Source: Sedimenticola selenatireducens (GTDB lineage: Bacteria; Pseudomonadota; Gammaproteobacteria; Chromatiales; Chromatiaceae). From it: DNA of 64,000 nt. Position numbers and translations under genes: made by a program. The notes under the pieces are model-generated. The model was not told the origin of the DNA. It made no database searches and worked only from the letters and a program-made list of their open reading frames with translations. The stretch spans positions 1 to 64,000 of the forward strand of contig NZ_VMNH01000013.1 of assembly GCF_007625115.1 (NCBI RefSeq). Reading direction: 5' to 3'. This document shows positions 6,288-28,944 of this stretch, in pieces. Position 1 is the first letter of the stretch. Every line of letters starts with the position of its first letter.

Positions 6288-8162
6288 ATGAATAAAAATA
6301 TTGGGTCCCTATTGTTAAGTTGTCTGTTATTCCTGCCTGCCTGGGTGAGTGCCGATGTGCCGACTGATTGGAAGCAGATAACTCATGGTGGTTTGACGTT
6401 CTCCATGCCAGCTGATTGGGTGCCAATTAAGGAGCGGGATTTTGAAGGGCAGTGGGGCATTAAGGATGATGAGAAACGTCAGGCCGTTGTATTTTCTATA
6501 GCCCGTGAGCGGCATCCAGAGCGCATGCTCAAAGGGGCAGAAAAGGATGGTATGACTGTTCAATCACAAGGCGTGATAGCAGTTGGCGCGCTGTCCGGTG
6601 AGCAGCATCAGATCTCCGGCAGCATGAAAGATCAAGATCTCTTCCTCAAGCTGGTAATCCTTGATGGGTTACTTCCCAAAGGTGACAAAATCACATTTAA
6701 CGCCTCAATTGTCAGTATGCCTGTAGATCAATGGCAGCCCGTGATTGAGCAGGTGATGGCAAGTGTAGTACCAACCTCTGAGTTGGAAGCGCTATTACAA
6801 GGGTACAGCCAACATAAACTGTTTGATGGATTGATCACTCTTGACGTGCGCAATAATTGGGATATGACCGACCATACTGACAATGTCTCATGGGAGCCAC
6901 CCTTGGTATCGATCTACGGAGCCCAGATGATCCGTTTTGCCCATGGCTACAATCTTACCGGCAGCAACGGATTGTTAAGCAAGATGAAGGATCCGGTCAT
7001 TGAAAAGTCTGAAATGTATGGTATTCCGGCCTGGAAGATTGTTGGTACAGGAGTGGGCGTCACCTATACCACTCCGATGCGTACCAAAACCATTCCAGCC
7101 ACTACCGTTCTTTATCTCTCGGATATCTGCCTTGCCAAAGGTGATCGCTTTGGCTATGCCATTACGGCGAGTGATGAGATGTTGGTCGAACATAAGGCGG
7201 AGCTGGATAAACTGTTGTCCAGCGTGAAGCTAACCCTGCCTGAAGAGGCCGGTCCCTGTGATGATTTGGTGACCTATGAATGGAATGAAGGACTAAAGAT
7301 TGGTGTGCCTCGCAGCTGGCGAAAAAATCAGGATTCCAAGTTTCAGATCTCCTGGTATGACCGGGCCCTCACTACAGGTGCTGATATCAGAGTCAGCATT
7401 AACCATCACACCACTGACGTGCATCCGATAACGGGTTATGACCATCCTGCTGAGACCCTGGAGCAGCTGACCATAGACGGTTATCCGGCAACCCATTACC
7501 GCAAAACCCATACCGGCTCTGACAAAATTGAGAAGATATACGATTACTACATCATCGATAGCCGGATGCGTTTTAAGGCGGCCACTCAGCAGAACACCCC
7601 CTCATTTTTTATCGTGCAGTTTACAACCAGCCCCTCTGCTGTGGCTCAGCCGGATATTGCCACTCACCAGCGGGTGCTCGACTCCATCGTCTTTGGCCCG
7701 GAGTGGGAGAGTGAAACGCTGGTTAAGAGAGAGGCGCAATCTGTGACGAACATTCAGGGAGTTGATGATCCACAGACCGGACCATTGGGCAAGGCTGTAG
7801 ATGTTACTGAAACTGTAAAAAACAGTGAACCAACAACTGAGGAAGCTGCGGTGGATGCGCCTGCGGCTGATCCAATTCAAGCAGAAGATGCAGCAGATGA
7901 AACACCAGTTAACCCTCCGATTGATGAACCAAAAACAGAAAAACCAGCTGCTCCATCTGAAGCAGTAGCTATCCAGGATGATGCCCGGCAACGTTATGAG
8001 CAGGCCAAGGCGTTGCGTGAAGCGGGTGCGTTGCTTCAGAAGCAGGGAAAGCTCGTTGAAGCGGTAGAAAAATATCGCTCAAGTTTGTCATTTTATCCAG
8101 ATGACAAACTGGAAGAACATGTCAGACGGATAGAACAGATGCTGGGTAATGGGGGGCGGTAA
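6288..8162 (+). CDS. Exported protein with three DcrB/PsbP-like domains and a C-terminal repeat module
   Basis: First gene of the large operon. The 624-residue protein has a signal peptide (residues 1-22, cut after VSA). Three successive regions of about 150 residues (about 25-165, 170-325 and 325-475) each carry the pattern of a beta strand, then a 'P..W' turn, then a strand set (FSMPADWVP; VRNNWDM; IGVPRSWRK). These resemble DcrB/DUF1795 (PsbP-like) folds. A linker of about 100 residues rich in Pro, Ala, Glu and Asp follows. The last 60 residues (QRYEQAKALREAGALLQKQG...) form a TPR-like helical pair that closely matches the end of the 2105-residue protein in the same operon. Likely periplasmic or surface-located. 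Function is unknown. Confidence 0.8.
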   Translation: MNKNIGSLLLSCLLFLPAWVSADVPTDWKQITHGGLTFSMPADWVPIKERDFEGQWGIKDDEKRQAVVFSIARERHPERMLKGAEKDGMTVQSQGVIAVGALSGEQHQISGSMKDQDLFLKLVILDGLLPKGDKITFNASIVSMPVDQWQPVIEQVMASVVPTSELEALLQGYSQHKLFDGLITLDVRNNWDMTDHTDNVSWEPPLVSIYGAQMIRFAHGYNLTGSNGLLSKMKDPVIEKSEMYGIPAWKIVGTGVGVTYTTPMRTKTIPATTVLYLSDICLAKGDRFGYAITASDEMLVEHKAELDKLLSSVKLTLPEEAGPCDDLVTYEWNEGLKIGVPRSWRKNQDSKFQISWYDRALTTGADIRVSINHHTTDVHPITGYDHPAETLEQLTIDGYPATHYRKTHTGSDKIEKIYDYYIIDSRMRFKAATQQNTPSFFIVQFTTSPSAVAQPDIATHQRVLDSIVFGPEWESETLVKREAQSVTNIQGVDDPQTGPLGKAVDVTETVKNSEPTTEEAAVDAPAADPIQAEDAADETPVNPPIDEPKTEKPAAPSEAVAIQDDARQRYEQAKALREAGALLQKQGKLVEAVEKYRSSLSFYPDDKLEEHVRRIEQMLGNGGR

Positions 8163-8181
8163 TGATAATGAGGGAAGTAAC

Positions 8182-9486
8182 ATGTCTATGAGTTGTTTAC
8201 GTGATCTGCTATTAATTGCTGCCCTGTTTTCGCTTTCAACTGTTTATCTTCAGGCGGATCAAGCGGGTGTGATTCTTGATAACACGGTCGCTGCACCTGT
8301 AGAGAGTGTGCCACTCAAGCCGACACGATTCACTCTCTATGACACACGTACCATCACTCAAATTCGGACTTTTCATTGGAATAAGGGAAAGGGTTCTTTT
8401 CCCGGTTCTATCGCGTTACAGGATAAAAATAAACGTCTGATTGGACCTTGGAAGGCGACTGGTATTGATGACCAGGGAGTGGCTAATGCCTACTGGGAAG
8501 TTTCTCCGGATATCGTGCTGGAGGCGGGTATCTATACCGTGCTGGATTCAGAGCCAAGCACATGGTCTCGCAATCCAGCAAAAGGTGATATGGGTATTGT
8601 GCGTGTATTGGGACAGATGGGTGATGCAACAGCAGATGAAGTGACGAAGGCAGAGAATAATGCACCTGCTGTCACTAATGAACCGCCTTCGCTAACGCTG
8701 GAAGAGCAACAGACGCTCGCAGCGGAGCTGTTTGAGCAGATCCGTCAGGCCGACACCTACGATTATGCACAGATTGAACAGCTCTACCTGCAACTGTTAC
8801 AGGAATGCCCTGATACTGAACAGGCCGAGGAGTCCTACTTCAGACTATCAAATCTCTACCGTATGGGTATGGATCCACCAGAGTATCAAAAACTCAGGGT
8901 GTTGTTAGAAGAGTATATGGTTCGGTATCCGACATCAGAGATGGCACCAGAGATGAGTCAACGTCTGCGACGTGCCTATGAAGATACCGGACAGTGGCCC
9001 CAGGTAGTGGAACTCTATGAAACAGAGGTGTCCGAGCTTACTGAAGAGAATCCCTACTACCTGGTGACAATGCTTGATTATGCCAAAGCACTGGAGGGTA
9101 GTGGCATTCGCGACAAAGCGCTTGAGGTTTACCAACAGGTCGCGACAACAGCCGGCAGTGAAAAGGCCGGTAATTATGATATGAGCGATCTATGGTTGCG
9201 GGTTGCGCAACAACGAATCGAAATTATTGGCCTGTTGAATACCGAACAGTGGAACGAACTGGTTGAAGTGTACCGTAAGCAGTTCGCCAATATGGCCTTT
9301 GCTGAGATGCCACAGATTCAGGAACTGCTGGAATATGCGCAGGCGCTGGAGAAGAGTGGTGATCGCTCCGCCGCTATTGCGCAGTATCGGCAGGTGATGC
9401 GAACGGATCAGGGCAACCGAACACTTCAGGGTCAGCAGGCCAGTGAAAGGTTGATTGAGCTGGTAGGAGTCGACTGGCATGAGTAA
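8182..9486 (+). CDS. Exported protein with an N-terminal beta domain and TPR repeats
   Basis: A 434-residue protein. I chose the ATG at 8182 because AGGGAAG lies just before it and a signal peptide (MSMSCLRDLLLIAALFSLS) follows. Residues about 30-140 form a beta-rich domain ending AYWEVSPDIVLEAGIYTVLDSEPSTWSRN, a pattern I have seen in exported proteins of unknown function. Residues about 170-430 are tetratricopeptide-like helical repeats (ALEGSGIRDKALEVYQQV, ALEKSGDRSAAIAQYRQV). It lies 19 bases after the first gene. TPRs usually scaffold protein complexes, so an assembly role in the periplasm is plausible. Confidence 0.75.
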   Translation: MSMSCLRDLLLIAALFSLSTVYLQADQAGVILDNTVAAPVESVPLKPTRFTLYDTRTITQIRTFHWNKGKGSFPGSIALQDKNKRLIGPWKATGIDDQGVANAYWEVSPDIVLEAGIYTVLDSEPSTWSRNPAKGDMGIVRVLGQMGDATADEVTKAENNAPAVTNEPPSLTLEEQQTLAAELFEQIRQADTYDYAQIEQLYLQLLQECPDTEQAEESYFRLSNLYRMGMDPPEYQKLRVLLEEYMVRYPTSEMAPEMSQRLRRAYEDTGQWPQVVELYETEVSELTEENPYYLVTMLDYAKALEGSGIRDKALEVYQQVATTAGSEKAGNYDMSDLWLRVAQQRIEIIGLLNTEQWNELVEVYRKQFANMAFAEMPQIQELLEYAQALEKSGDRSAAIAQYRQVMRTDQGNRTLQGQQASERLIELVGVDWHE

Positions 9487-9510
9487 GTGGAATTAACGGG
9501 AGAAGGGTTG

Positions 9511-10410
9511 ATGCAAAGCAAACTATCAGGCAATCACCTGTGCCAATCGAGTCGCACCGTGCGATGGCTGGCCGCTATGCTGCTGGTCGCTATTCTGGCT
9601 ATTTCATTCAATTTGCAGAGCGGGGAAGTGGCCGTGGATGAACGATTCAAACTGGCTGAGCAAGCGCTGAGCGAGGGCAGTATCGAACAAGGGAGGGCGC
9701 ACCTTGAAGCTATCCTGAAGGAGAATCCTGCAGACAAGGATGCCTGTAATCTCCTCGGTAACATTGCACTCTCGCAGGGGGAGTTAGAGCAGGCAAAAAA
9801 CTACTACAACTGCGCCCTGGATGCCGACCCGCTGTTTGCCGAGGCCTATAACAATCTCGGTGTACTGGCTTTGAAACAGGGCCAGATGAATGAGGCCATG
9901 ATCAACTTCCAGGCTGCCGTGAAGATCGATCCAAAGCGCGCTGATGCCTGGTACAACATGGGTCAGATCCTGATGGCGGCTGGCCAGGTGGGTCCTGCCG
10001 AGGAGTACCTGCGGCGTGCCACGCGGGCGGACCCCAATCACGCGGCATCACGTCACCGCCTGGCGGTTCTGCTGCTCGGACTGCGCCGGGGTGATGAGGC
10101 GAATCAGGTATTGGAAGAGGCGGTCAAGGCAACACCTGACAACCCCGAGATACTCTTCCTGTTGGCAACAGTGCTGGATGATCTTGGTCGCATAGAAGAG
10201 GCGTCGATACGCTATCAGGAGGCGCGCAGTGCCGGTAACACCTCCCCGGTTCTCCCGCTCTATCTGGCTGAAACCCAGATTAAGCTTGGCCAAAAAGCGG
10301 CCGCGAAGAGGGAGCTTCGCACCATTCTGGATAGTGCCAAAGCCGATGCGGCCGTTAAGGAGAAAGCTGCCATCCTGATGAAGGAGATGGGCGATGACGG
10401 TACCGAATAA
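9511..10410 (+). CDS. Membrane-anchored TPR protein
   Basis: A 299-residue protein. Residues about 20-38 (WLAAMLLVAILAISFNL) are a signal anchor or signal peptide. The rest is at least six TPR units (NLLGNIALSQGELEQAKNYY, NNLGVLALKQGQMNEAMINF, YNMGQILMAAGQVGPAEEYL and so on), with the canonical W/L-G-Y-A-P spacing. The ATG at 9511 is preceded by GGGAGAAGGG; an in-frame GTG at 9487 is less likely. It overlaps the next gene by 17 bases. Such proteins act as docking scaffolds, as PilF does in pilus secretin assembly. Its partners here are presumably other products of this operon. Confidence 0.8.
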   Translation: MQSKLSGNHLCQSSRTVRWLAAMLLVAILAISFNLQSGEVAVDERFKLAEQALSEGSIEQGRAHLEAILKENPADKDACNLLGNIALSQGELEQAKNYYNCALDADPLFAEAYNNLGVLALKQGQMNEAMINFQAAVKIDPKRADAWYNMGQILMAAGQVGPAEEYLRRATRADPNHAASRHRLAVLLLGLRRGDEANQVLEEAVKATPDNPEILFLLATVLDDLGRIEEASIRYQEARSAGNTSPVLPLYLAETQIKLGQKAAAKRELRTILDSAKADAAVKEKAAILMKEMGDDGTE

Positions 10411-13402
10411 GCGCACTCTCCTGCAGCCCCTAATTATGCTGTCAAACCTCTATCGGTGGCTGCTGGCCCTTGTTCTGCTGATTCTGATCAGCCAGCCGCT
10501 CACACTATTTGCGGCCGACAATATCGAAGAGCTTCGGGTTCGTCAGCAGAATGCACTGAAAGTCCTGGAAAGCAGTTATCACAACAGGGTCCGTAGCAAT
10601 CCGGCTTTAATCAAGCCCGATGGTACGGTGGATACCAGCCATCCTGACTACCAGCAGGTGCTGAGTGACTACAGTAAAGACAAGGCTCAAATTCAGTCAC
10701 AGTTCAATGATCAAGATAGCCGAGGACAGGACCTTGCAGATCTGCAGCAGCGCTATGGTTCCAATCTCAAGACCACCGGCAGTTCCCCGAAAGATGTCAG
10801 GGCGGATGTTGATATCACTGCCAATAACAGCGATGTCGCCGCACAGATCGCTGACGAGTGGCGGGCTCGGGGTGATGATGTCGATTATGATGAAAATCTT
10901 GGTATCTACATCAACAAGACAAAAGATACCACCCTCTGGCAACCTCCTTCTGACACCCAGTTAGCTGAAAGACAGAAATACCATGATGCCTTCTCAACGC
11001 CGGGCGGTAAGCAGGCGACCAATGTAAAGGGTGCCGAGTCGGTAAGGGATCCCGAGGGGTATGTCTTGGATAATGAAAAAAAGTTTATCCACGGCGCGGA
11101 GGACCTGGAAAGCACCGATATCAACAGCCGCTCTCCAGAGGCGCAACTGAAACGTGACATGGCCCTGAAAACTATGGGCAAGAGTGTCAGCAAAACAGCT
11201 GATGAAGTGGGTCATGACTCGAAGGTGATTAATCAGGCCCGTCAGTTGAGAAACTATGGGGACAAGTTCGAGACCGGCATCACCCCCCTGGGCGCAACCC
11301 CCGAACAACAGAAGTCTGACGAGAAAAAGTGGATACAGAAAGCTGACCAGGAGATACAAAATACCAAGCCGATAGCGGCTGACCAATCAAGAAAGATTCG
11401 TGATGTACGTGAGGCAGTTGCAAAGACCGCGGAAGAGCATTCAAAAGGCCGTCCAACGTCCAAGCCTGCCCCGGGAGAGGTGCCCGAGAATACTGCACAG
11501 AATATCCGTAACCGGAACAAAACGCTCGACAGCGCCAACGAAGAGGCCCGCACAGCCAACACCGAGGCGCGTAAAAAGGCCGGTTTGCCCAAACAACCGG
11601 AGCCAGACAAGAAGGCAATCGACAGCCAAGCGGATAACCGGGCCCGCCAAGCGGCACAAAAACAGCAGGAACAACAGCAGCGTGTGACCTCAAGCGAGCG
11701 CAAGGGTCAGTCAAAAAATAGCAAATGGAAAGTCACTGACGAGCGTCAAGGCAAGACAAATACCAAGACCATCACCTCGAAAACAAGCAATGCTGATGGC
11801 AGTGATACTACACGAACGACCCGTACTGAGAGCAAGCGTACTCCCAGTGGTGGAACAACCACCCAGCAAAATAGAAAAATAACTGAAAAAGGGGCTGATG
11901 GTTCAAGTAAAAGCACCCGTCAGAAAACCACAGGATACGAGGGAAAGAACACAGGTTCAGCCACCACAAAAACAACTGAGATGGAACGGGATGCCAGTGG
12001 TCAGGTCACCCGCCGGAGTGATTCAACCAAGACCACCACTACCCGCAATAACAAGAGTGGCAAACAGATCAGTACCAACGAACAGTCCACCACCCACCAG
12101 GCCAGGAATAGCTGGCTGCCCGGAAGTACAGGTACCACCACCACAGAGAGCAACAAGCACACCATTGTCCATGAACAGGGTGGTCAAACACGGAAAACAG
12201 AAACCGGGCGTACAACCACTACCGATAACAATACGGGCTTCAAGACCACCACTAACACCCAGGCAACCACTAACACCCGCAAGGATGATGAGGGGCGTGA
12301 AACAACCACTAGGGTAACCACCACCACGACAGATAAACCTTGGCAGAAGAGCCGGACAACAACGGGTGGCTATGAACGGGATCTCAAACCCGGTGGTGAT
12401 CCAAACGAGCCGGAGGATGGGAAAAGAATCGGTGATCCAACCAAGGTCAATGTAAAGATTGCCGGCGGCAAGCTTTTCGAGCCGATTGATGAGGCGAATA
12501 GTACTGCCGCAACCAGTACTGCGGGAAGGACAGATTCGGGTATTGAATACGGTGGTGAGGCCAAGGTGCAGGTCGGTCAATATGGCTCGAGTGGTAACTG
12601 GGAGGTAACGGCTAACCAGCGGGGTCTGCATGCCAAGGTGGATGTGAATGCTGAGGTCAATGCAATCAAGGCCACGGCTACCGGTAGTGCCGAGAAGAAA
12701 ATCGGCAATGCGACCCTTGGCGCCAAGGTGAGTACTACTGCCAAGTTGGGTGCGGAGGGAAAGGGCTCGGGTGAGCTTCATCTGGGATCTGACCGTGTTG
12801 CCGGTTCTCTTGAGGCAAAGGTCTTTGTTGGCGGCAAGGCGGAGGCGGCGGCTGAGGCATCACTCTCATGGTGGGGGATCAAGCTCACTGGCAAGGCCCA
12901 GGGAGAGGTCACTGCCGGTGCCGGTGCAGAGGCTAAGGTGGACGCTGAACTGTCATGGACAAAGATCCGTCTTGGCGCAAAATTGTCGGCCACCCTGGGT
13001 CTGGGTGCAGGTGGTGGTACATCGGTTGAATTTGATGCGACCGAAGCGATCACCGGCTATGATCCCGCGGCTCTCGATCAACAGTTCCAGGCCGGCGACA
13101 GTATTGTGCGAATCTGCCGTGATCTGCGGTCGGGGCGTCTGCGCCTGCCACCTGGCGTCAAGTTCTCGGATATCCGTGACCGTCTGCAGAAAAATGCAGA
13201 ACTCTTTGCCAAGCATCCTCAGCTGACCAAGGACGGTAAAAAAATCAGTCTGGTTGACTCGTTGATCAATGACCTGAATCTGAAGAAGGGCAAGAACAAC
13301 ACTTATATCACGGCCCATCACAAACAGAAGGACTGGTACTGTACCAACAGACCTCAGATCGAAGCGCCAGTTGTCCTACCTTCTATCGTGGAGCGCAAAT
13401 GA
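10394..13402 (+). CDS. Large Thr-rich repetitive exported protein (1002 aa)
   Basis: ATG 10394 has a strong AAGGAG seven bases upstream and lies inside the previous gene. The signal peptide (about residues 15-40) ends LTLFAAD. Residues 40-430 are charged, Gln/Lys-rich and mostly helical, with a WW-like stretch between W156 and W182 (YINKTKDTTLWQPP). Residues about 430-690 are low-complexity, Thr/Arg/Gly/Asn-rich short repeats such as TTTTRNNKSGKQ and TTTTDNNTGFKT. Residues about 700-880 are Gly/Ala-rich alternating strands (GKAEAAAEASLSWWGIKLTGKAQGEV), likely an extended beta sheet. The last 120 residues look globular and contain two cysteines. This composition suggests a surface fibre, adhesin or matrix protein. 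No enzyme motif is visible. The repeats are not RHS (no YD repeats). Confidence 0.75.
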   Translation: MTVPNKRTLLQPLIMLSNLYRWLLALVLLILISQPLTLFAADNIEELRVRQQNALKVLESSYHNRVRSNPALIKPDGTVDTSHPDYQQVLSDYSKDKAQIQSQFNDQDSRGQDLADLQQRYGSNLKTTGSSPKDVRADVDITANNSDVAAQIADEWRARGDDVDYDENLGIYINKTKDTTLWQPPSDTQLAERQKYHDAFSTPGGKQATNVKGAESVRDPEGYVLDNEKKFIHGAEDLESTDINSRSPEAQLKRDMALKTMGKSVSKTADEVGHDSKVINQARQLRNYGDKFETGITPLGATPEQQKSDEKKWIQKADQEIQNTKPIAADQSRKIRDVREAVAKTAEEHSKGRPTSKPAPGEVPENTAQNIRNRNKTLDSANEEARTANTEARKKAGLPKQPEPDKKAIDSQADNRARQAAQKQQEQQQRVTSSERKGQSKNSKWKVTDERQGKTNTKTITSKTSNADGSDTTRTTRTESKRTPSGGTTTQQNRKITEKGADGSSKSTRQKTTGYEGKNTGSATTKTTEMERDASGQVTRRSDSTKTTTTRNNKSGKQISTNEQSTTHQARNSWLPGSTGTTTTESNKHTIVHEQGGQTRKTETGRTTTTDNNTGFKTTTNTQATTNTRKDDEGRETTTRVTTTTTDKPWQKSRTTTGGYERDLKPGGDPNEPEDGKRIGDPTKVNVKIAGGKLFEPIDEANSTAATSTAGRTDSGIEYGGEAKVQVGQYGSSGNWEVTANQRGLHAKVDVNAEVNAIKATATGSAEKKIGNATLGAKVSTTAKLGAEGKGSGELHLGSDRVAGSLEAKVFVGGKAEAAAEASLSWWGIKLTGKAQGEVTAGAGAEAKVDAELSWTKIRLGAKLSATLGLGAGGGTSVEFDATEAITGYDPAALDQQFQAGDSIVRICRDLRSGRLRLPPGVKFSDIRDRLQKNAELFAKHPQLTKDGKKISLVDSLINDLNLKKGKNNTYITAHHKQKDWYCTNRPQIEAPVVLPSIVERK

Positions 13403-19716: not shown

Positions 19717-19730
19717 AAAGAAAGCACAAG

Positions 19731-19755
19731 TTATTAATGGATCAATTATTAATGG
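19731..19755 (+). repeat. Tandem 10-base direct repeat before the vWA gene
   Basis: TTATTAATGG occurs at 19731-19740 and again at 19746-19755, a 15-base period, in the only sizeable gap (85 bases) inside the operon. It could be a regulator site or part of an internal promoter. No matching sigma-70 pair is evident. Confidence 0.4.
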
Positions 19756-19801
19756 TTTCAGGTGATATCAGATTCCTGGTCTTAAATTCGGAGGTGGCGT
19801 T

Positions 19802-21943
19802 GTGAACAGGCATGATGGGCTTAAATGGTTGAGTACCGTGCTGTTAAGCGGATTGATATGGAGCAACGCAGCGATTGCCAATACCGGGACTGATGCCTTG
19901 GAAGGGGGCAATGGTGTGGGTGCTGATGCACTTGAAGGTGGCGGAACAATGTCAGCCGATGCGTTGGAGGGAGGCATCAATGCTTCGCCAGTAAAGTGTG
20001 ATGGACAATCACCCTGTATTGAAACCAGCACAGGCCTGCCACTGAAGGTGCTCCCCAGACCTTTCAGTAATATCTATCTGGAGCAGCAGGCCAATGCAAA
20101 TGCGGTGGCAATGGCTAATGTGCAGGCTTTTAGTCCTCTGTATGTGTTCGCCCGTGAAGGAATCGATCTTTCCGACCCATCTGAGCCACAAGGCTGGTAC
20201 CAGGTGGGCAGCAATGCTACGCAAGCTGCGGGTTGGATGCAGGCGCGGGACGCGTTGGAATGGCGTCAGGCACTGGTTGTAGCCTATACCCATCCTGGGG
20301 GTATTGCAGAGGGGCGCAAGCCGGTATTGATGTTTAAGGATGCAGAATCACTGCGCAGTATTGTTGACGCGGAGGATATGGCGTCCAAGGCGGCCGGAGT
20401 GTATGCCGCGGTAGAAAAGTCTGAACCACCTGAGTCAGTGATCAGCATGGAACCGAAGCGCTACATCGATATTAACCGACAGTTTTATATCCTGCCCATT
20501 CTCGATTGGGAACAGCTGGATATCTATGGCGATGAAGTACGCTTGCTCCAGATTGCGGCAGCGGTACCGGGTCAACGTGGTGCTGACACGTTGAATGATA
20601 GCGGCTATATGGATCAGGCCAATACCGGTCGCGAGGTTGATCAGGGCGCTGGACTGGACAATTTGTCGATTGATGTGGTGTTTGTAATGGATACCACCCG
20701 CAGCATGCAGCCCTACATAGATAAAACCCGCGATGCGGTAAAACGCATGGTTCAGGCGACGGGTGACAGATTAAAAGACAAGGTGAAGTTTGGCCTGGTG
20801 GGTTATCGTGATTCAGTTGCGGCTGCTCCAGCGGTTGAGTACACCAGTCGTAATTTCACCCCGGAACTGGTTGATGCCAATGCCTTAATTGATGTGCTTA
20901 CGAATGATGCCAAGGCGACTCCGGCCGGTAGTCTTGACTATGCAGAAGAGGTGTTTGCAGGTGTGGATGTCGGCCTGCGCTCAGAGTGGCGACCTGGTGC
21001 ATTGCGCTTTATTGTTCTGGTCGGTGATGCGAGTGCCCATCCCCGGGGACATCCTCAGAATACCACCGGAAAAGATGAAACAGACTTGCGCCGCGAACTG
21101 GATGATGCGGGTGTTCATCTGATCTCGATTCATCTTCAGGATCAGCGTGCGGCGGAAGATCACAATCAGGCCATTGTTCAGTTTGGCCAACTGGCCCAGG
21201 TTCGTGGTAGTGATGGGCAACAGGCACTGATCGTGGTGAATGCGTTTAAAGAGGGTGATTTTGAAGCGGCTGTTGATAGCGTAGTAGGTGGTGTGGTGAC
21301 CCGTTTTGAACAGTCTCTGGCACTGCGTAGCCTACCACCCCCACCGCCGATGCCGGAGTATGGCGCTGACTTGGATACAGCGACTCAGGGTCAGGTGGCG
21401 ATTAACAAGGTCTGGGAAGCCGCCTTGATCGAATACCTGGGCAAAGGTGCTCGGCCGCCAAAAGATATCGTCGCTTGGGCAATGGACCGGGATCTGCTAA
21501 ATCCAACGGACACCGCGCTGGAAGTCCGTGTGTTGGTTACGCGTGAACAGCTGAGCAGTTTGGTACAGGCGTTGGATCGTGTGCTGGAAGCATTTGAAAA
21601 GTCTGAAAAGAGTCAGGGTCAGTTTTTTGAGGCGCTGCAGAGCCTCTCAGGCCAGGCTATGAAACGCCCGGAAGATTTGGGGCATGCACAGAACTTGGCA
21701 GAAACCGGGCTATTGCCTTCCTTTATACAGAGTCTGCCCTATCACAGCGCTATTCTTTCGCTGACTAATGATATGTATGCCAGCTTTACCCCAGAGCAGC
21801 GGGTTCAACTGGAATGGGGATTAAAGGCCAAGCTGGCTCAGTATGTGGCTATCAATGAAGAGGTGGATGCTTGGCATCGGTTGAATGAGTCCGATCCTGC
21901 CAGTGAACTGGTTCATCCGCTGCATATTGATTATTTGCCGTGA
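19802..21943 (+). CDS. Periplasmic PpkA-like von Willebrand factor A protein with DALEGG repeats
   Basis: A 713-residue protein starting at GTG 19802 behind GGAGGTGG. The signal peptide ends AIAN. Residues 31-58 hold three DALEGG motifs at an 11-residue period. Residues about 95-160 resemble an SH3-like module (PLYVFAREGIDL...WYQVG...GWMQARDALEWRQALV), as in the non-kinase part of PpkA-type proteins. Residues about 290-490 form a vWA domain with the metal-site motif DTTRS (D297, T299, S301) and a later GDA. No kinase domain is present. The C-terminal 200 residues are helical. vWA domains bind protein partners through a divalent metal. The next gene starts inside its stop codon (GTGA). Confidence 0.85.
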   Translation: MNRHDGLKWLSTVLLSGLIWSNAAIANTGTDALEGGNGVGADALEGGGTMSADALEGGINASPVKCDGQSPCIETSTGLPLKVLPRPFSNIYLEQQANANAVAMANVQAFSPLYVFAREGIDLSDPSEPQGWYQVGSNATQAAGWMQARDALEWRQALVVAYTHPGGIAEGRKPVLMFKDAESLRSIVDAEDMASKAAGVYAAVEKSEPPESVISMEPKRYIDINRQFYILPILDWEQLDIYGDEVRLLQIAAAVPGQRGADTLNDSGYMDQANTGREVDQGAGLDNLSIDVVFVMDTTRSMQPYIDKTRDAVKRMVQATGDRLKDKVKFGLVGYRDSVAAAPAVEYTSRNFTPELVDANALIDVLTNDAKATPAGSLDYAEEVFAGVDVGLRSEWRPGALRFIVLVGDASAHPRGHPQNTTGKDETDLRRELDDAGVHLISIHLQDQRAAEDHNQAIVQFGQLAQVRGSDGQQALIVVNAFKEGDFEAAVDSVVGGVVTRFEQSLALRSLPPPPPMPEYGADLDTATQGQVAINKVWEAALIEYLGKGARPPKDIVAWAMDRDLLNPTDTALEVRVLVTREQLSSLVQALDRVLEAFEKSEKSQGQFFEALQSLSGQAMKRPEDLGHAQNLAETGLLPSFIQSLPYHSAILSLTNDMYASFTPEQRVQLEWGLKAKLAQYVAINEEVDAWHRLNESDPASELVHPLHIDYLP

Positions 21944-22743
21944 TTGATGTGAACGTTACCGACCCTGTTGCAAGAGTGAATACATCGCTAGCTGCGAAGG
22001 AAAGCGGGTCGGTGCCACTCTTATTGTTGCAACAAGTGGTCAAGTCCCGGTCACATGCAGGTAGCAGTTTTCAACTTGTAGTACCTGAACTGTCGGTTTC
22101 GCCTGGCGAGTTTGTTGCAGTTGTTGGTGAGAGTGGTTGTGGTAAAAGTACCTTGCTTGATCTGCTGGCACTGATCTCCAAACCTGACGCCGCTGATTGT
22201 TATCGGCTGGTATTTGCAGACAGTGAGCAGCACGATGTGGCTGATCTATGGAGCCGCAATGACGAGTATGCCCTTGCGAGTATAAGACGCCAGCACCTCG
22301 GGTATGTTTTACAGACAGGTGGTTTACTGCCTTATCTGAATGTGCGTGACAACCTGCTTTTACCCATGCGTATTAATCGACTCCCGGGTGGTAGTAAACG
22401 CGTAAAGGAGATGGCAGAACGCATGGGTGTAGCGGACTGCTTGAATCGCCTGCCAGAATCACTCTCCGGTGGTCAACGTCAACGGGTGGCTATATTACGG
22501 GCCCTCTCTCATTCGCCTCGGTTGGTATTGGCCGATGAACCTACCGCTGCCGTGGATAAACGACGCGCCCGGTTAATTGTGCAAGATTTACGCTCGTTGG
22601 CTCGGGATGAAGGGCTATCAATCATTATGGTTACGCATGATCTGGATTTGGTTCATGAAGTAGCGGATAGGACCTATGGATTTGAAGTGAGCCAGGTCTC
22701 GGAAAATGAAACGCTCTCCATCTGTAGCCAAGAGGTGTTGTGA
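21940..22743 (+). CDS. ABC transporter ATP-binding protein, MacB/LolD type
   Basis: A 267-residue ATPase. Walker A GESGCGKST lies near residue 65. The signature LSGGQRQRVAI is near 178, Walker B LVLADEPTA near 200, and the H-loop VTHD near 230. The overall pattern fits the MacB/LolD/FtsE family, which drives mechanotransmission permeases. It starts at GTG inside the previous stop (4-base overlap), and the permease start overlaps its own stop, so it is tightly coupled to both neighbours. An N-terminal extension of about 25 residues precedes the first strand. It presumably forms a 2+2 complex with the permease and powers a periplasmic process rather than solute import. Confidence 0.93.
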   Translation: MIDVNVTDPVARVNTSLAAKESGSVPLLLLQQVVKSRSHAGSSFQLVVPELSVSPGEFVAVVGESGCGKSTLLDLLALISKPDAADCYRLVFADSEQHDVADLWSRNDEYALASIRRQHLGYVLQTGGLLPYLNVRDNLLLPMRINRLPGGSKRVKEMAERMGVADCLNRLPESLSGGQRQRVAILRALSHSPRLVLADEPTAAVDKRRARLIVQDLRSLARDEGLSIIMVTHDLDLVHEVADRTYGFEVSQVSENETLSICSQEVL

Positions 22744-24578
22744 TGGATAGTGGGGTAAGTCAACGACTGAGAGTATTTGGGCTTGCGGCGGCTCACCTGA
22801 AACATGAATGGGTTTTGACCCTGTGTCTGGTATCAGCCTTGGCGGCAGTACTTGCTCCGTTATTAATTTTAATGGGTTTGAAAGAGGGAACGATTGAGAC
22901 ATTGCGTGATCGTTTGGTACAGGATCCAGTGTATCGGGAAATTCGTCCTGCAATTACCCGTACCTTTGACAAGGAGTGGATGGAACAGCTTCAGAGTGAT
23001 GAACGTGTGGCCTTTCTTACAACCACTATTTTACCTGCATCGTCAATGATCCATCTTGTTGCTAATGGTACGGATGCCGAGTTGATTGATCTGGTCCCCA
23101 CCGCAGATGATGACCCTCTGTTACTGGAAAATGATGGGGCAATCCCGCAGGAAGGTGAATGCGTCTTGAGCAATGAAGCGGCAAGACGTCTGGGTGTAAA
23201 AGTCAATGAGTCCATTGTGGCACGCGTCACGCGCAGTCGAGGGGGGCGTTACGAAACAGTTGAACAAGACCTTCGTGTAAAGGCGGTTTTATCATCTCGT
23301 GCAGGGAGTTTGGCAAGGGTATACACGCCGCTTGAATTTGTTGTGGATGTTGAATCTTATAAAGAGGGGCGAGGTGTTGCAGCACGTGGCTGGGCGGGAC
23401 AATCTTCACAGCCGTATATGAGTTTTGATGGTGTGCTGGTGTTATCCCAATCAATGCTTGATCCTGTTCTCCGTACTGGCCTGGTGGTTAATACAGGACT
23501 GCTTAAGGCAGACCCTATGGATAGTGAGGCCTTTGCTTCACTAACTGGTCTCTCCTTGCCTGATGGTTGGTACCCCTACAATCTCTCCATTCCGGCCGGC
23601 AGTGTAAATTATTCAAGCATTGAAGCACTGAAACGAAAACTACGCGGTAGAGAAGCCCTGTTAATTCCCTATGTGAATGATCTGATATTACAGCTACCTG
23701 AAAAGGAGCTTGCCATTGTGGGGCTTTCCATCAATACGGATTGGGCTGAAAAATTGGCTTGGCCCGCCTTGCCCTGGGGACAACTCTCGGCAACTGCACT
23801 GGAGTCGACTCGACTGATGCAGATTCTATTACCAGGAGATGATGTTTCTGTCGGCACTTCGTTAATGGCCACTTTTTATGGTGCCAGTCCGGTGACCTTC
23901 CCCTTGAAGGTAGTGGGTGCACCATCCCAAGTTAAACGAGCGCTGGTTCCAATCGAGCTGATTGGTATGCTGCGTACAGCCCGTGATCGGGCGGTTGTTT
24001 ATCAGGCCGAAACGGATGATCTTGTTCTGCAACGTGCCGGTTTTCGAGGATTTCGACTCTACGCGCGAAATATCGACGACGTCCCATCCCTGGTGGCGCA
24101 GCTTCGGGGGCAAGGTCTGGAGGTTGTTGCGGCTGTGGACGCTATTGAACGTATCCAGGTGCTGGATCGTGGTTTGACCCAGCTCTTTTGGCTGATTGCT
24201 GTATTAGGTGTCGTTGGCGCGAGTGCCGTACTGATCGCCAGTCTTTATGCTGCGGTTGAGCGTGAACGCAAGGACTTGGGTGTTTTGCGTCTGATCGGTT
24301 TGGCGCGTAAGGATGTGTTTCTGTTTCCTGTATTTCAGGGTGCGCTTATCGCCATGTTGGGTGTCGCTCTTGCATGGGGCGGTTATTCACTGTTATCAGA
24401 GGTGATTAATCGCGTGTTTGGGAATGAGTTATCTGATGGACAGGCGATCTGCCGATTGCCAGCAGGCTATCCCTGGTTGGCTATGCTGGCGACTCTCACC
24501 TTGGCAATAATGAGCTCCCTGATTGCCGCCTGGAAGGCGACACTGATTGAACCTGCGGAGGCAATACGTGAAGAATAG
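22743..24578 (+). CDS. FtsX/MacB-type ABC permease
   Basis: A 611-residue inner-membrane protein. One N-terminal membrane helix (about residues 18-42, LTLCLVSALAAVLAPLLILMG) is followed by a periplasmic region of about 420 residues. Three C-terminal helices end the protein (LFWLIAVLGVVGASAVLIASL, FQGALIAMLGVALAWGGYSLL, WLAMLATLTLAIMSSLIAAW). This is the FtsX/MacB topology. The cytoplasmic loop ERERKDLGVLRLIGLARKDV is the usual ATPase-coupling segment. ATG 22743 overlaps the ATPase stop. No membrane-fusion protein or TolC-like gene is in the operon, so a classical tripartite pump is not complete here. Confidence 0.9.
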   Translation: MDSGVSQRLRVFGLAAAHLKHEWVLTLCLVSALAAVLAPLLILMGLKEGTIETLRDRLVQDPVYREIRPAITRTFDKEWMEQLQSDERVAFLTTTILPASSMIHLVANGTDAELIDLVPTADDDPLLLENDGAIPQEGECVLSNEAARRLGVKVNESIVARVTRSRGGRYETVEQDLRVKAVLSSRAGSLARVYTPLEFVVDVESYKEGRGVAARGWAGQSSQPYMSFDGVLVLSQSMLDPVLRTGLVVNTGLLKADPMDSEAFASLTGLSLPDGWYPYNLSIPAGSVNYSSIEALKRKLRGREALLIPYVNDLILQLPEKELAIVGLSINTDWAEKLAWPALPWGQLSATALESTRLMQILLPGDDVSVGTSLMATFYGASPVTFPLKVVGAPSQVKRALVPIELIGMLRTARDRAVVYQAETDDLVLQRAGFRGFRLYARNIDDVPSLVAQLRGQGLEVVAAVDAIERIQVLDRGLTQLFWLIAVLGVVGASAVLIASLYAAVERERKDLGVLRLIGLARKDVFLFPVFQGALIAMLGVALAWGGYSLLSEVINRVFGNELSDGQAICRLPAGYPWLAMLATLTLAIMSSLIAAWKATLIEPAEAIREE

Positions 24579-26220
24579 GGTGCTTTGGTTTCTGTGTCTG
24601 CTGTTATTGGCACTGAATGTCTGGCCAGCGATTCCAGCGAAGAGTATCTATAACCCGAGTCCGGAGGAGGGTGATCTGGTGCTGCCGATGCCCAATGGTG
24701 CTGAACTGGTACTGCGTCCTATCAGGGTGCCAGGAAAAGGTTTCTGGGGTGACCGGGAACGGGTTGTGCAACTGGGTGATGCCACGGGTGGTGCGTTTGA
24801 AGGGGTACAGCAATCCATGGTTGCAGGATCATTTGAAGAACCTGGAAATCAGCGATGGGTAATCTGGCTGGCCAAGTATGAACTGACCAAAGGACAGTTT
24901 GTTGCCGTTATGGGTGCCGAGGCCCTGGCAGCTGCCAGCGGCAACCCGGTAGATATGAAATATGCAGAATTAACGGGGCGGAATTTAAAGCAGGCCCAGG
25001 CAATGCCGCTGTCATGGATAGATTATCAGGCAGTTGAAGATTTTCTGCGTGCCTATAATCACTGGCTGTTTGATCCGGAGCATCCTGAGCGCCGGACTGA
25101 ATTGCCAACGATTGATGGCGTTCCAGGTTTCATCCGATTGGCGGCTGAAGATGAGTGGGAGTATGCGGCTCGCGGTGGTATGGCTGCCTTGAAGGATGGA
25201 ACCTTTAGTGACCGTTTACCTTTTTCACCACGTCAGCTCAACGAGTATGCCTGGCATCTGGGTAATGCGAAAAACAAACCACGCCCGATTGGCCTGCGAA
25301 AAGCCAATCAATTAGGACTGCATGATCTCTATGGCAATGTTCATGAAATGACAGCAGGGCTGTTCCGGCCCGAAATATGGCAGGGAAAGCCTGGTGGGGT
25401 TCCCGTGCGGGGTGCCAGCGTTTCAAGTCCTGTTGGTGATGTGCGCTCGAGTTATAGAACAGAGTTTGATACTTATGCCTGGAATGCAGAAACAAAGGAG
25501 ATGGGATTGCGGCGGACATTCAATATTGGTGCGCGTCTTGCCCTTGGTTCGAATGTGGTAGTTAGCTCATCTACGCGTAACCGGCTTGAAAATGAGTATG
25601 CCGAATACAGAAAAACATTACGTCGCGAAACCCCAGTGGGTCGGACGCTGGATAATCTTGTTAGCCAGGCATCCAGTCAGTTGGATACCGTTGATAGTGT
25701 CCTTAAAAGGCTGCTTGATCGTTATCCGGATGCACAAGATCAAGTTGCGTCAATACAAAGCTATGTCGACACTGCGAGAGGCCAGCTTGTTCAGGCGCAG
25801 CGTGATAACGCCCGCAGTCTGCTGCAGGACGCTTCGCGAAATGGCACAAATTTAAGTGTACTGATCAGTAAACGCGTGACCCTTGATAGAGCTATGGAAA
25901 CGGCCAGTCGTTTGCTGAGTAAATCGACCCGCTATCAGGCACAAGTGGATGCGGTTCAGAAAACCCTTGATGAAAACAGTTCCGCAGCGAATGAGCAGTA
26001 CAAAGCGTATTTGGATAAGGTGCTTCTGATCGGGGAGTATCAGCAGGAATTCAGGGAGCATGCATTCAAGGTGATGCGTGAAAAGAAACTGAGCTCGAGA
26101 GAGAGTCGGGTTTTGGAATTAGCAGAGCAACACGTACAACATTACAGTGAGAACCGTGCGGAGGATAAACCGGGCTGGTTAGCGCAGTTTAATAATATTT
26201 TTAAAGCATTCACGGAATAA
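24568..26220 (+). CDS. Exported SUMF1 (FGE-like) protein with coiled-coil tail, no catalytic cysteines
   Basis: A 550-residue protein starting at GTG 24568 (GGAG upstream), inside the permease gene. Signal peptide at residues 1-24. Residues about 35-330 form a SUMF1/formylglycine-generating fold: YELTKGQFVAVMG, LAAEDEWEYAARGG, LGLHDLYGNVHEMTAG, VPVRGASVSSPVGDVRSSYR, GARLAL. True FGE enzymes use a cysteine pair near the last motif. Here the mature protein has no cysteine at all, so oxidase activity is very unlikely and a binding or structural role is more plausible. Residues about 340-550 are long charged helices (coiled coil). Its place after the ABC pair suggests a periplasmic accessory subunit. 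Confidence 0.85.
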   Translation: MKNRVLWFLCLLLLALNVWPAIPAKSIYNPSPEEGDLVLPMPNGAELVLRPIRVPGKGFWGDRERVVQLGDATGGAFEGVQQSMVAGSFEEPGNQRWVIWLAKYELTKGQFVAVMGAEALAAASGNPVDMKYAELTGRNLKQAQAMPLSWIDYQAVEDFLRAYNHWLFDPEHPERRTELPTIDGVPGFIRLAAEDEWEYAARGGMAALKDGTFSDRLPFSPRQLNEYAWHLGNAKNKPRPIGLRKANQLGLHDLYGNVHEMTAGLFRPEIWQGKPGGVPVRGASVSSPVGDVRSSYRTEFDTYAWNAETKEMGLRRTFNIGARLALGSNVVVSSSTRNRLENEYAEYRKTLRRETPVGRTLDNLVSQASSQLDTVDSVLKRLLDRYPDAQDQVASIQSYVDTARGQLVQAQRDNARSLLQDASRNGTNLSVLISKRVTLDRAMETASRLLSKSTRYQAQVDAVQKTLDENSSAANEQYKAYLDKVLLIGEYQQEFREHAFKVMREKKLSSRESRVLELAEQHVQHYSENRAEDKPGWLAQFNNIFKAFTE

Positions 26221-26230
26221 GAGGTGAAGT

Positions 26231-26926
26231 ATGAAAACCTTAGCAAGAAAAATTATACCGACACTATTGATCGGAGCAATGGTCACGGGTTGTGTAAGTA
26301 ATCAACCAAAAAATGATTCGGCTAGTACAGCTGGATCACCTCAGCCACAGTCAGATTCCAGCCGAACAAAAACGGAAGGCGCTGTTTTTGGTGCGCTCTT
26401 GGGTGGGCTTCTCGGTATGGCTACGGGTGACAAGAAAAATGCTGCGGTCGGTGCGGTGATAGGTGCCGGTGTGGGCTATGTCGTAGGCAATGAGATAGCC
26501 AAACGCAAACAAGCTTATGCAACTAATGAGGAGTTCCTTGATGCGGAAATAGCACGGACAGCCGAGTTTAATCAAACCGCCAGAGCGCATCATGAGCGTC
26601 TGCGTGTAGAGATTGCAGCACTTGATGATGAGGCAGAAACATTACGTGCGCAATATAAATCTGGTCAGGCAAATAGACAGCAAATGCTGGCAAAACAGCA
26701 GCAGTTGAAAGAGAAACTGGACAAAAATAATGAGCTTGAGTCAGTACTGCAAAAAGAGTTTGAGATTAACTCGGAAGTCCTTGCTGAAGAGCGTAAGACA
26801 CGAAATACCGAAGACCCGTATCTGATCGCACTTGAGAAAGAAAATAGTGATCTTAAGGCTCAGATACAAACATTGCGCAATGACAGCACTCAGCTAGCTG
26901 AGATCAATGAGAGGTTGTCAGTATGA
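26231..26926 (+). CDS. Glycine-zipper lipoprotein with coiled coil
   Basis: A 231-residue protein. The lipobox VTGC puts the acylated cysteine at about residue 21. Residues about 50-90 form a glycine-zipper segment (GALLGGLLGMATG, GAVIGAGVGYVVGNEIAKRK), as in the OmpA-associated/YmgG and SlyB-type families, which insert in or span membranes. Residues about 95-231 are a long charged coiled coil. It starts 10 bases after the SUMF1 gene, and its stop overlaps the next lipoprotein (ATGA). It could anchor the complex in the outer membrane and reach across the periplasm. Confidence 0.82.
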   Translation: MKTLARKIIPTLLIGAMVTGCVSNQPKNDSASTAGSPQPQSDSSRTKTEGAVFGALLGGLLGMATGDKKNAAVGAVIGAGVGYVVGNEIAKRKQAYATNEEFLDAEIARTAEFNQTARAHHERLRVEIAALDDEAETLRAQYKSGQANRQQMLAKQQQLKEKLDKNNELESVLQKEFEINSEVLAEERKTRNTEDPYLIALEKENSDLKAQIQTLRNDSTQLAEINERLSV

Positions 26927-27492
26927 AGATTCAATCAATACAGCTCATTGCATTGGTTGCCCTTTTGAGTGGTTGTGTGGCGAATGAGAACCCAAAGGAA
27001 GGTGGGTTGTTTGGTGGCATTCATGGTCTTTCAAGTGGTGCGTATGAACGGCGCGCACAAGAACGGGAAGATAATCTGGCAAAAATGCGGGCATTGCAGG
27101 AAGAACTCAATCAGGAGACGACAAGCCTTGATGCGCAAAAGCAGAAGCGGCAGATGATACTTGATGAGGAAAGACGTCAGTTAGCAACACTCACTACTGA
27201 TGTCAAAGCGTTGGAAATCAAATTGGCATCAATGCAAAAGGAGAAAGGGGCGTCGGACAAGCGGCTGGCTGCTATACAAACACGGTTGAAGGATTTGAAA
27301 TCACAACTATCAACACAGCAAAACTCGTTGGATGCGCTTGAAGGTAACGGTGTGGGTGGTGCAGATGCACTGGAAGGCACCCGTTCAGGCATGCCAACCG
27401 ATTCTCGTCGTCAACAACTGGAAGCGCAACGGCTGGAACTGCAGCAGGAGTATGATGATCTTCTCAATCTGACACTGATGCTGGCAAAGTGA
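26923..27492 (+). CDS. Coiled-coil lipoprotein with DALEG repeats
   Basis: A 189-residue protein. Signal peptide with lipobox LLSGC (Cys at about 18). Residues about 40-135 are a continuous coiled coil rich in Glu, Gln, Lys and Arg. Residues 137-141 and 148-152 are DALEG, spaced 11 residues, in the context DALEGNGVGGADALEG. This nearly copies the N-terminal repeat of the vWA protein of the same operon. A short final helix follows. The overlap with both neighbours (ATGA, GTGA) points to strict co-expression. The shared repeat suggests both proteins bind one partner or are handled by the same factor. Confidence 0.82.
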   Translation: MKIQSIQLIALVALLSGCVANENPKEGGLFGGIHGLSSGAYERRAQEREDNLAKMRALQEELNQETTSLDAQKQKRQMILDEERRQLATLTTDVKALEIKLASMQKEKGASDKRLAAIQTRLKDLKSQLSTQQNSLDALEGNGVGGADALEGTRSGMPTDSRRQQLEAQRLELQQEYDDLLNLTLMLAK

Positions 27493-28562
27493 AATGTAAA
27501 GGTATTAGCCTGATTCTGATGGGTTGTTTTATCTGGCCGGCAGCTGTAATGGCGTCTGAATCAACGCTGGTAGAGGAGATCCGAACTATCTTGAGAGAGC
27601 AGGCACTCAACAAGCCGGATGAATCACAACTCAATGCCTTGACGAGTCAAAACCTAAAAAAGGGGTTAAAGGCGATTGATCCTTGGGCTGATGTAATTAT
27701 AAAGCCTGACTTATTGAGTGATTCGTCTACGGCAGGTATTGGTGGAGAACTCTATATGGATAAAGGCCGCCCCTGGGTGATGCCTTATGCCAATAGTCCA
27801 CTTACCCGGGCAGGCATAGAGGATCGGATTGAATTATACGCGGTTAACGATAAACTGGTGGAAGGAGTGCCACTTGCCGAAATAGCCCAACTCCTGACAG
27901 GTAATGAGGGGCGTGTACTGGGGTTAAAAATATGTCGGTCCGGGTGTGACGAACCCGAAAATCTACAAATAGCGCTTGAACCCATTCGTAAAAGCTCAGT
28001 AGAACAAGTGACAGTCGCTGGGCAAACTATTCTGCGGGTGCGCGGCTTTAAAGTTTGGGAAACGCGTTTTTTATTGGAGCGATCTCTGGCAACAATGGAT
28101 GGGTTTACGCCGTTAATCCTGGATTTACGCGATTGTCAGGGTGGGGATCTATTCGAGGCCATGGATGTAGCAGCGCTGTTTCTACAAGGAGGCAAAGAGC
28201 TGGCGGCCACGGTGGATAGAGAGAGCAGAAGGAGACGCTATTATTCACCCTACTCAATCAAGGTCACCAAGCCATTGACCCTTCTTGTCAGTCGCAATAC
28301 GGCAAGTGCAGGTGAGGTGTTTGCTGGTATTCTTCAGGCACAAGGGCGTGCTGTCTTGGCCGGGAAGCAAACAAGAGGTAAATGCGTTTCACAAACAGTC
28401 AGGCGCTTATCCGATGGTTCACAGCTTCATTTTACCAATTTTGAGATTGAGTTACCTGACGGCATCCATTGCCAGGATAAAGGGCTTCAACCCGATATTG
28501 AATTGACGGAGGAGGAAGTCCGTAACGATACTCTACTGATGGCACGTCTTCGCGGCCAGTAA
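27489..28562 (+). CDS. S41-family (C-terminal processing) peptidase
   Basis: A 357-residue protein, the last gene of the operon, starting at GTG 27489 inside the previous stop. Signal peptide at residues 1-22. Residues about 75-165 form a PDZ-like domain (GIGGELYMDKGRPWVMPY, IELYAVNDKLVEGV). Residues about 190-345 are the S41 core: LILDLRDCQGGDL, then NTASAGEVFAGIL with the candidate nucleophile S273, then GKQTRGKCVSQ with the candidate general base K298. The 25-residue Ser-Lys spacing equals that of known tail-specific proteases. It probably processes or degrades periplasmic proteins, perhaps products of this operon. C217 and C299 are unusual extras near the active-site loops. Confidence 0.88.
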   Translation: MKCKGISLILMGCFIWPAAVMASESTLVEEIRTILREQALNKPDESQLNALTSQNLKKGLKAIDPWADVIIKPDLLSDSSTAGIGGELYMDKGRPWVMPYANSPLTRAGIEDRIELYAVNDKLVEGVPLAEIAQLLTGNEGRVLGLKICRSGCDEPENLQIALEPIRKSSVEQVTVAGQTILRVRGFKVWETRFLLERSLATMDGFTPLILDLRDCQGGDLFEAMDVAALFLQGGKELAATVDRESRRRRYYSPYSIKVTKPLTLLVSRNTASAGEVFAGILQAQGRAVLAGKQTRGKCVSQTVRRLSDGSQLHFTNFEIELPDGIHCQDKGLQPDIELTEEEVRNDTLLMARLRGQ

Positions 28563-28795: not shown

Positions 28796-28861
28796 AAACA
28801 GAGAAAGGCCGGAGGCCTGACCGATAAACCAGCCTGTCGGTGTTATACGGAAGCAGTCCAA

Positions 28862-28937: not shown

Positions 28938-28944
28938 ACAGAGA

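Follow-up and report, generated by a model that had tools for sequence, protein, structure and literature searches.

The TagQRST/PpkA envelope module of the type VI secretion system (T6SS) is the closest described counterpart of the operon analysed here. In Pseudomonas aeruginosa, ppkA and pppA come next after the tagQ-tagT genes. PMC6657622 lists tagQ, tagR, tagS and tagT under the locus numbers PA0070, PA0071, PA0072 and PA0073, and reports that TssK assembly requires TagQ and TagR and is reduced upon loss of TagS or TagT. According to PMC11881912, TagQ and PpkA are required for the T6SS to respond to indentation and to polymyxin B nonapeptide, which damages the outer membrane; the authors propose an unknown signalling molecule in this response. 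In PMC3608642, TagQ is likened to the 17 kDa Rickettsia antigen, and TagQRST/PpkA homologues outside T6SS are assigned to SrfBC loci of host-associated deltaproteobacteria, including Desulfovibrio and Desulfobulbus. Here we analysed a stretch of 64,000 nucleotides (the window) from Sedimenticola selenatireducens, which lies on contig C31 of a 4.03 Mb genome given as 99.99% complete. Positions 6288-28562 of the window hold twelve same-strand (+) open reading frames (ORFs), termed the operon g1-g12. In our reading, this operon represents a third branch of the TagQRST/PpkA module, one that lacks the kinase and is coupled to giant exported proteins of its own.

The ORF calls agree with a preliminary description of the locus, in which twelve genes run in one direction. 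From g1 to g12, the products are 624, 445, 307, 1002, 2105, 713, 267, 612, 557, 231, 189 and 357 residues long, and the junctions from g1/g2 to g11/g12 measure -14, 0, -17, -4, +85, -4, -4, -32, +10, -4 and -4 bases, with overlaps given as negative values. The majority are overlaps of 4-17 bases. The widest gap, 85 bases between g5 and g6, is as first described, whereas the overlaps, once put at 1-17 bases, reach 32 bases at g8/g9, where the ORF tool sets a TTG start. A hydrophobic N-terminal segment or a lipobox was found in 10 of the 12 products by hydropathy and lipobox criteria alone; the g7 ATPase has neither, and the signal-like start of the g6 vWA protein falls below the hydropathy threshold. 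Pfam and NCBIfam searches uphold the original product calls, namely an ABC ATPase, an FtsX permease, a vWA protein, a SUMF1 protein, a Gly-zipper lipoprotein, an S41 protease, TPR proteins and a multi-domain protein of 2105 residues.

The genes g6-g10 suggested a PpkA-TagT-TagS-TagR-TagQ set, which prompted a comparison of the sequences. The gene g6 (19802..21943, +) encodes a vWA protein (vWA match, 8.4e-8) that resembles the vWA part of PpkA without the kinase domain and carries DALEGG repeats at 19892-19975. It is followed by an adjoining pair of TagT/TagS type: g7 (21940..22743, +), an ABC ATPase with Walker A, signature and Walker B motifs (PF00005, 1.9e-26), and g8 (22740..24578, +), a long form of the FtsX-type permease (FtsX, 1.6e-10) with a large periplasmic part, one N-terminal and three C-terminal hydrophobic segments. 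The TagR-like product of g9 (24547..26220, +) is an exported SUMF1 protein (SUMF1, 1.8e-19) whose sole Cys sits in the signal segment; because the mature protein lacks Cys, it probably serves as a binding fold rather than as a formylglycine-generating enzyme. A sequence search of the PDB gave weak SUMF1-fold matches for g9 and no match for the vWA profile. The TagQ-like lipoprotein g10 (26231..26926, +), which has a lipobox, belongs to PF05433 (9.7e-8), the Gly-zipper/17 kDa-antigen family to which TagQ is likened, and, judged by its sequence type, may reside in the outer membrane. These five genes, encoding the vWA protein, ATPase, permease, SUMF1 protein and lipoprotein, stand in the same order as in the TagQRST-PpkA module. 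Two further genes complete the 3' part of the operon: g11 (26923..27492, +), a coiled-coil lipoprotein with two DALEG motifs at 27331-27381, and g12 (27489..28562, +), an exported S41 protease (S41, 5.4e-32) with SAGE and GKxxxGK stretches as its Ser and Lys motifs. DALEGG-type motifs are common to g6 and g11 of the same operons and to related proteins of loci L058, L059 and L069. In two Thiotrichaceae (L064, 12055-13419; L066, 7688-9034), a second, shortened copy of g6 keeps both ends, with no match for the vWA in its middle.

Two plasmid loci served for comparison of the gene order. On plasmid pTM1 of Tistrella mobilis, the genes encode TssM, TagF, a PP2C phosphatase, a Ser/Thr kinase, the vWA protein, ABC ATPase, FtsX permease and SUMF1 protein, a hypothetical protein and VgrG. 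Plasmid pENTE01 of Enterobacter sp. 638 carries SrfA, SrfB, SrfC, a hypothetical protein, the vWA protein, ATPase, permease, SUMF1 protein and three hypothetical proteins; thus SrfABC loci also present the vWA-ATPase-permease-SUMF1 series outside T6SS, here with no kinase annotated. Over residues 110-713, the window vWA protein is 30.7% identical to that of Tistrella and 29.1% identical to that of Enterobacter. In addition, eleven vWA proteins from other genomes could be aligned over about the full length, and the member from genome G033 adjoins a kinase gene. Relatives of the vWA protein also occur on 125 plasmid records, 114 of them from Klebsiella; the one Enterobacterales stretch opened, that of Enterobacter sp. 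638, has SrfABC alongside.

Further relatives of the vWA protein were collected by scanning genome contigs with a vWA alignment. The best 80 of 354, picked by likeness to the window and many of them on short contigs, were taken together with L135-L137, and the loci were searched with the operon genes, with SrfABC and with the T6SS, kinase and phosphatase proteins of Tistrella, the one organism behind the T6SS queries. Since the scores of hidden Markov models do not separate the two groups of vWA proteins, trees were used. In a midpoint-rooted tree of 84 rows, the window falls into a clade of 26 rows with a support of 99 in the Shimodaira-Hasegawa-like approximate likelihood ratio test (SH-aLRT), made up of the window and 25 loci, of which 13 have an S41 match and 12 have none. 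Among named organisms, Sedimenticola loci come closest to the window in their vWA gene, and strain DSM 17993 of S. selenatireducens carries the operon (L056). All 31 Srf loci fall among the remaining 58 rows, as do the T6SS locus, three loci that adjoin a kinase and 23 loci of unknown context, one of them the basal L078. L078 is placed near the root in an unsettled position, and its genome, G078, was left out of the clade counts. Neither SrfB/C nor TssM nor a same-strand adjacent kinase was found at the 25 other clade loci. Elsewhere in the tree, a group of 14 rows (for example L093, L096, L110, L122, L125, L130 and L133), mostly from gammaproteobacterial metagenome-assembled genomes, gave no SrfABC, T6SS or kinase matches at the loci examined; it may represent a further context of the module.

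The absence of the kinase extends over the entire operon, as Pfam and NCBIfam revealed no kinase family in g6 or in the other eleven products. The own genome has five PF00069 kinase matches, all on contigs other than that of the operon. At E<=1e-8, PF00069 is missing from genomes G071, G072 and G073 and present in the rest of the 23 clade genomes searched. The phosphatase and FHA families (PppA, Fha) are not represented among the twelve products, the genome as a whole not having been searched for them. Compared to TagQRST-PpkA loci, the operon thus differs in having neither a kinase domain nor an adjacent kinase, phosphatase, TagF or TssM, and TssB (PF05591) was not found in its genome. Moreover, its permease is about 200 residues longer; by ORF lists, the clade permeases have about 600-670 residues, against about 390-420 in Tistrella, Enterobacter and genomes G033, G019 and G021. 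The extra lipoprotein, the S41 protease and the giant exported proteins are further differences. SrfABC loci differ in another way: the clade loci lack SrfA/B/C, SrfB was not found in the own genome, and the vWA proteins belong to different clades. Of the 25 clade genomes, two, G071 and G072, have an SrfB match over the cut-off, compared to 10 of 10 genomes taken from Srf loci.

The ATPase and the FtsX-type permease, with its one plus three hydrophobic segments, also resemble LolCDE and MacB. They might therefore serve envelope biogenesis without any sensing, in which the ABC unit extracts lipoproteins or giants or moves them outward, the SUMF1, vWA and TPR proteins act as chaperones and the S41 protease takes care of maturation. 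The C terminus of the permease matches lolCE (5.4e-9), the ATPase matches the LolD, DevA and MacB models, and two lipoproteins and the protease share the operon. However, the scores lie far under the curated cut-offs (lolCE, 35.5 versus 362 bits; LolD, 132.6 versus 307.75), no LolA/B family, MacA-type fusion protein, TolC or other outer-membrane channel family is found among the products, and the closest relatives of the full module stand in T6SS and SrfABC loci. Consequently, we regard this alternative as unlikely. The twelve products match no TolC, fusion-protein, secretin or BAM family, just as the preliminary description had it. GldK and GldJ, the SUMF1 lipoproteins of the type IX secretion system (T9SS), likewise stay far below their curated cut-offs (GldK, 16.2 versus 350 bits; GldJ, 13.1 versus 458).

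These comparisons lend good support to assigning g6-g10 to the TagQRST/PpkA(vWA) envelope module as a branch that lacks the kinase and, in this case, stands without a T6SS. The system had at first been considered possibly undescribed. Indeed, our literature search of open-licence papers found no description of this twelve-gene set, but g6-g10 correspond to the TagQRST/PpkA-vWA module of T6SS and SrfABC loci, so that the machine half is of a known kind. With neither kinase nor T6SS, the gene set appears to put a known sensing and energy module to a use not yet described. At least three genomic contexts are now seen for this envelope core, and a natural version without kinase and T6SS, fixed beside its probable partners, would separate the action of the ABC/SUMF1/vWA core itself from the contribution of the kinase.

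Several observations weigh against this assignment or against its extension to the whole operon. The likeness to TagQRST-PpkA by sequence is to Tistrella mobilis pTM1, the H1 system of P. aeruginosa having been compared from papers. At locus L060 of the clade, a TssL-like gene lies immediately upstream on the other strand; kinase-like genes occur at L060 and L064 at a distance of several kb, again on the other strand. TssB occurs somewhere in 14 of 25 clade genomes, the own genome included in the 25, so a link to T6SS is possible in those. Among the exported proteins, g5, g4 and a domain shared by g1 and g5 were not found by profile in most clade genomes, which indicates that the partner set is not constant, and confidence in the structure models of g1 and g4 is low. 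The TssB count, the SrfB matches in 2 of 25 clade genomes and the kinases encoded elsewhere in most genomes would also fit an operon that regulates, in trans, a T6SS or SrfABC system encoded at another place. This is very unlikely, given that the own genome has neither TssB nor SrfB, that 11 of the 25 clade genomes lack TssB, and that the 25 clade loci are devoid of TssM, SrfB/C and a same-strand adjacent kinase.

The reading of the operon as one kinase-less unit finds further support in its recurrence. A search with g9 in 55 genomes of relatives, own included, revealed orthologues in G002, G005 and G017 (72-76%) and in G018 (44%). All of g1-g12 are present with their order kept in G002, G005 and G017; in G017, the operon lies at another genomic place and has in-frame stops in g11 and in the end of g4. 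Within the genus, 3 of 9 genomes (own included) have the operon, and of the six that lack it, two have a completeness of 65% and 78%. G018 carries g7-g11, two copies of the vWA gene and, upstream, a giant of 3798 residues with CarboxypepD_reg and Big_5 domains. In G213, from another family, eleven of the twelve genes are found together on one strand in a reshuffled order: g5 (49.5%), g3 (58%), g4 (43%), g2 (48%, part), g6 (56%), a 1461-residue NHL-repeat protein and g7-g12 (33-53%); g1 was not found there as a separate gene. The Desulfobulbaceae have permuted sets, with g9-g10-g11-g12-g6-g7-g8 followed by proteins of 820 and 2789 residues, the latter a relative of g5, in G077, and with g9-g10, a 214-residue protein, g12-g6-g7-g8 and proteins of 1131, 977, 279 and 724 residues in G075. 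A replicon of Azospirillum brasilense carries g6-g12 in order. These recurrences mark the gene set as a genuine unit, whose core is constant and whose partners are less so, and they agree with the earlier proposal of an energised envelope machine with large exported proteins. The unit is rare. In a sample of 369 genomes drawn from the class, own included, a vWA protein of the g6 family was found at E<=1e-60 in 25. When 22 full-length newcomers were placed on the tree, one (G213) joined the window clade with a support of 99, and two genomes with partial proteins were not placed; the window branch is shown in 2 of the 369 genomes.

The 5' part of the operon encodes the exported partners g1-g5. 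The protein g1 (6288..8162, +) is exported and, by a low-confidence model and a profile, comprises a PsbP/DcrB-like part and a C-terminal TPR-like domain (7971-8159). The DcrB/PsbP likeness, proposed from the start, has no Pfam match but applies to part of g1 in the AlphaFold model, which has a predicted local distance difference test (pLDDT) score of 47.6; its best PDB matches are PsbP, CyanoP, DcrB and LpqN (E 1.6e-5 to 1e-3), and the T6SS effector chaperones EagT6 and SciW rank lower. Pfam and hydropathy identify g2 (8149..9486, +) as an exported TPR protein and g3 (9487..10410, +) as a TPR protein with a hydrophobic N-terminal segment. The 1002-residue exported protein g4 (10394..13402, +) belongs to no known family and has a Thr-rich middle and a conserved DWYCTNRP segment (13331-13354) near its C terminus. 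The 2105-residue exported protein g5 (13399..19716, +) contains CarboxypepD_reg, Big_7, CARDB and a sub-threshold PPC domain by Pfam and NCBIfam, six EWGNN and three DxDxDG stretches, and a C-terminal domain (19516-19713) homologous to that of g1. The preliminary description had seen g4 and g5 as two giant clients of the machine. This fits g5, which recurs in other clade members, but g4 is constant among relatives and no function could be assigned to it.

We named the domain of about 60 residues shared by the ends of g1 and g5 the dock domain, as it may mediate binding. It is of TPR type; the copy of the window g1 is 51% identical over 70 residues to that of G002 g5, and the own g1/g5 pair 44%. 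The domain is N-terminal in three proteins of G075 and one of G077. Its profile (A6) at E<1e-20 detected G000, G002, G005, G017, G074, G075 and G077, which makes 7 of 25 clade genomes against none of the 38 others; its matches in the own genome are g1 and g5 only. Weaker matches (1e-6 to 1e-9) were found in clade genome G070 and in the non-clade genomes G025, G081 and G089. Among 11,837 ORFs of the loci examined, matches at E<=0.01 are confined to clade loci and include giant proteins and, in the PVC-group locus L070/L143, the gene that follows S41. Upstream of that clade locus, the complement of L143 1758-9086 encodes a 2442-residue protein in which a dock-like repeat occurs about seven times in tandem. 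The conserved part of g5 (alignment A3) is present in G000, G002, G005, G017, G059 and G077, or 6 of 63 genomes (6 of 25 in the clade, 0 of 38 others). We offer the giant exported protein family and the dock domain as candidates for direct binding.

The g4 profile (A4) found G000, G002, G005, G017 and G213 among 64 genomes, with a partial N-terminal match in G027. The latter is a 1236-residue exported protein (L216, 3743-11286) with a g4-like N part, encoded next to two dynamin-like GTPases; the g9 search had given no relative in this genome. The DWYCTNRP segment recurs within the 2789-residue giant of G077 (31 residues, 51.6% identity, pairwise E 3.4e-6), which continues for about 700 residues beyond it with a sub-threshold match to the pre-toxin family PT-TG (17.6 bits versus a cut-off of 23.5). 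These features, together with the service of module relatives to T6SS and SrfABC loci, could point to contact-dependent antagonism, in which attack or contact, sensed by the module, would lead to the deployment of a giant fibre with an effector-like part. Against this, the window products lack any toxin, pre-toxin or immunity family, the C terminus of g4 is constant among relatives, unlike in polymorphic toxin systems, and the remote likeness of g4 to Desulfobulbaceae tails is not significant. Furthermore, a library of anti-phage systems, given 10 of the 12 products, returned nothing of note, the matches being confined to generic ATPase ones for g7 and weak ones for g9 and g10. Antagonism is therefore an improbable explanation of the window operon.

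By eye, the N part of g4 (TGSxxKDVRADVDI) is similar to the C-terminal tails of the Desulfobulbaceae giants and to the protein after the G059 g5 fragment, with a nucleotidyltransferase-like pattern. This likeness was unsupported by profile and pairwise searches and was dropped, which leaves the 31-residue DWYCTNRP segment as the one accepted similarity. The g4 model has a mean pLDDT of 50, and Foldseek gave apolipoprotein and beta-barrel matches with target TM-scores of up to about 0.35 (best 50). A membrane barrel at residues 431-646 is unlikely because LIVMFWY residues make up just 7% of this region, and the Foldseek matches were not used. Among the products, no sorting-signal or pore family exceeds its cut-off except a weak T9SS-tail match inside g5 (28.5 versus 23 bits), which was not taken as a sorting signal because it lies mid-protein. 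A role of the operon in surface display or export of the large proteins is not supported.

The fixed place of the module in a single operon, alongside a second lipoprotein, an S41 protease and the giant and TPR exported proteins g1-g5, is well supported. We propose that the inner-membrane ABC unit g7/g8 is connected to the outer membrane through the lipoprotein g10 and, in the periplasm, the SUMF1 protein g9, and that the enlarged periplasmic part of g8 is moved by ATP cycles. The vWA protein g6, also periplasmic, would then pass the motion or signal to a periplasmic assembly instead of to a kinase as in T6SS loci, since there is no kinase domain to carry a signal across the inner membrane. 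This assembly might hold g5 and g1 via their shared dock domain, and g12 might trim one of its components. The output could be the assembly, tensioning or release of an envelope structure containing g5 and g4 upon outer-membrane disturbance or contact. All interactions, the signal, the output and any localisation beyond the signal sequences are what we infer from the genes. Taking identity and mechanism as a whole, we hold this to be the best explanation, tentatively and with slightly less than even confidence. A bolder version, which we consider possible but doubtful, is an undescribed trans-envelope machine of the Sedimenticolaceae, in which the TagQRST/vWA module, taken over as its own engine, would work without phosphorylation on dock-marked proteins and the giants would form a fibre at the surface or spanning the periplasm, with an effector-like tip in some lineages; its relatives would be found in other Gammaproteobacteria, Desulfobacterota, Azospirillum and a PVC-group bacterium.

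A tRNA-Ala(GGC)-tRNA-Glu(TTC) pair lies on either side of the operon (left, 5583..5802, +; right, 28720..28937, +), a feature that the preliminary description did not mention. The place of the operon is a variable site between duplicated tRNA-Ala-Glu pairs in the genus. In G003, two such pairs lie about 160 bases apart with no gene between them, and in G001 they enclose a two-component system and genes with EB_dh, NapC, 4Fe-4S, NrfD and molybdopterin-oxidoreductase domains; at this place, G006 shows ORFs of comparable size. G005 has a pair after the operon; G002 has two pairs before it and none after it in the stretch read. A site as variable as this, empty in one genome and holding a molybdoenzyme set in another, could gather unrelated genes into a chance neighbourhood. 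Such an origin is hardly credible, however, as the same twelve genes keep their order at another place in G017, where no tRNA-Ala-Glu pair was found in the stretch read and the neighbours differ from those of the window, and as eleven stay together, reshuffled, in G213 and a permuted set occurs in Desulfobulbaceae. Upstream of the operon, a scan of 5800-6400 for sigma-70-like promoters found 0 versus 1.8 expected, and two terminator-like sites are present in the same region, one of them at 5859-5883 (+) behind the upstream tRNA-Glu. Within 19600-28990, 11 terminator-like sites were counted, compared to 8.2 expected.

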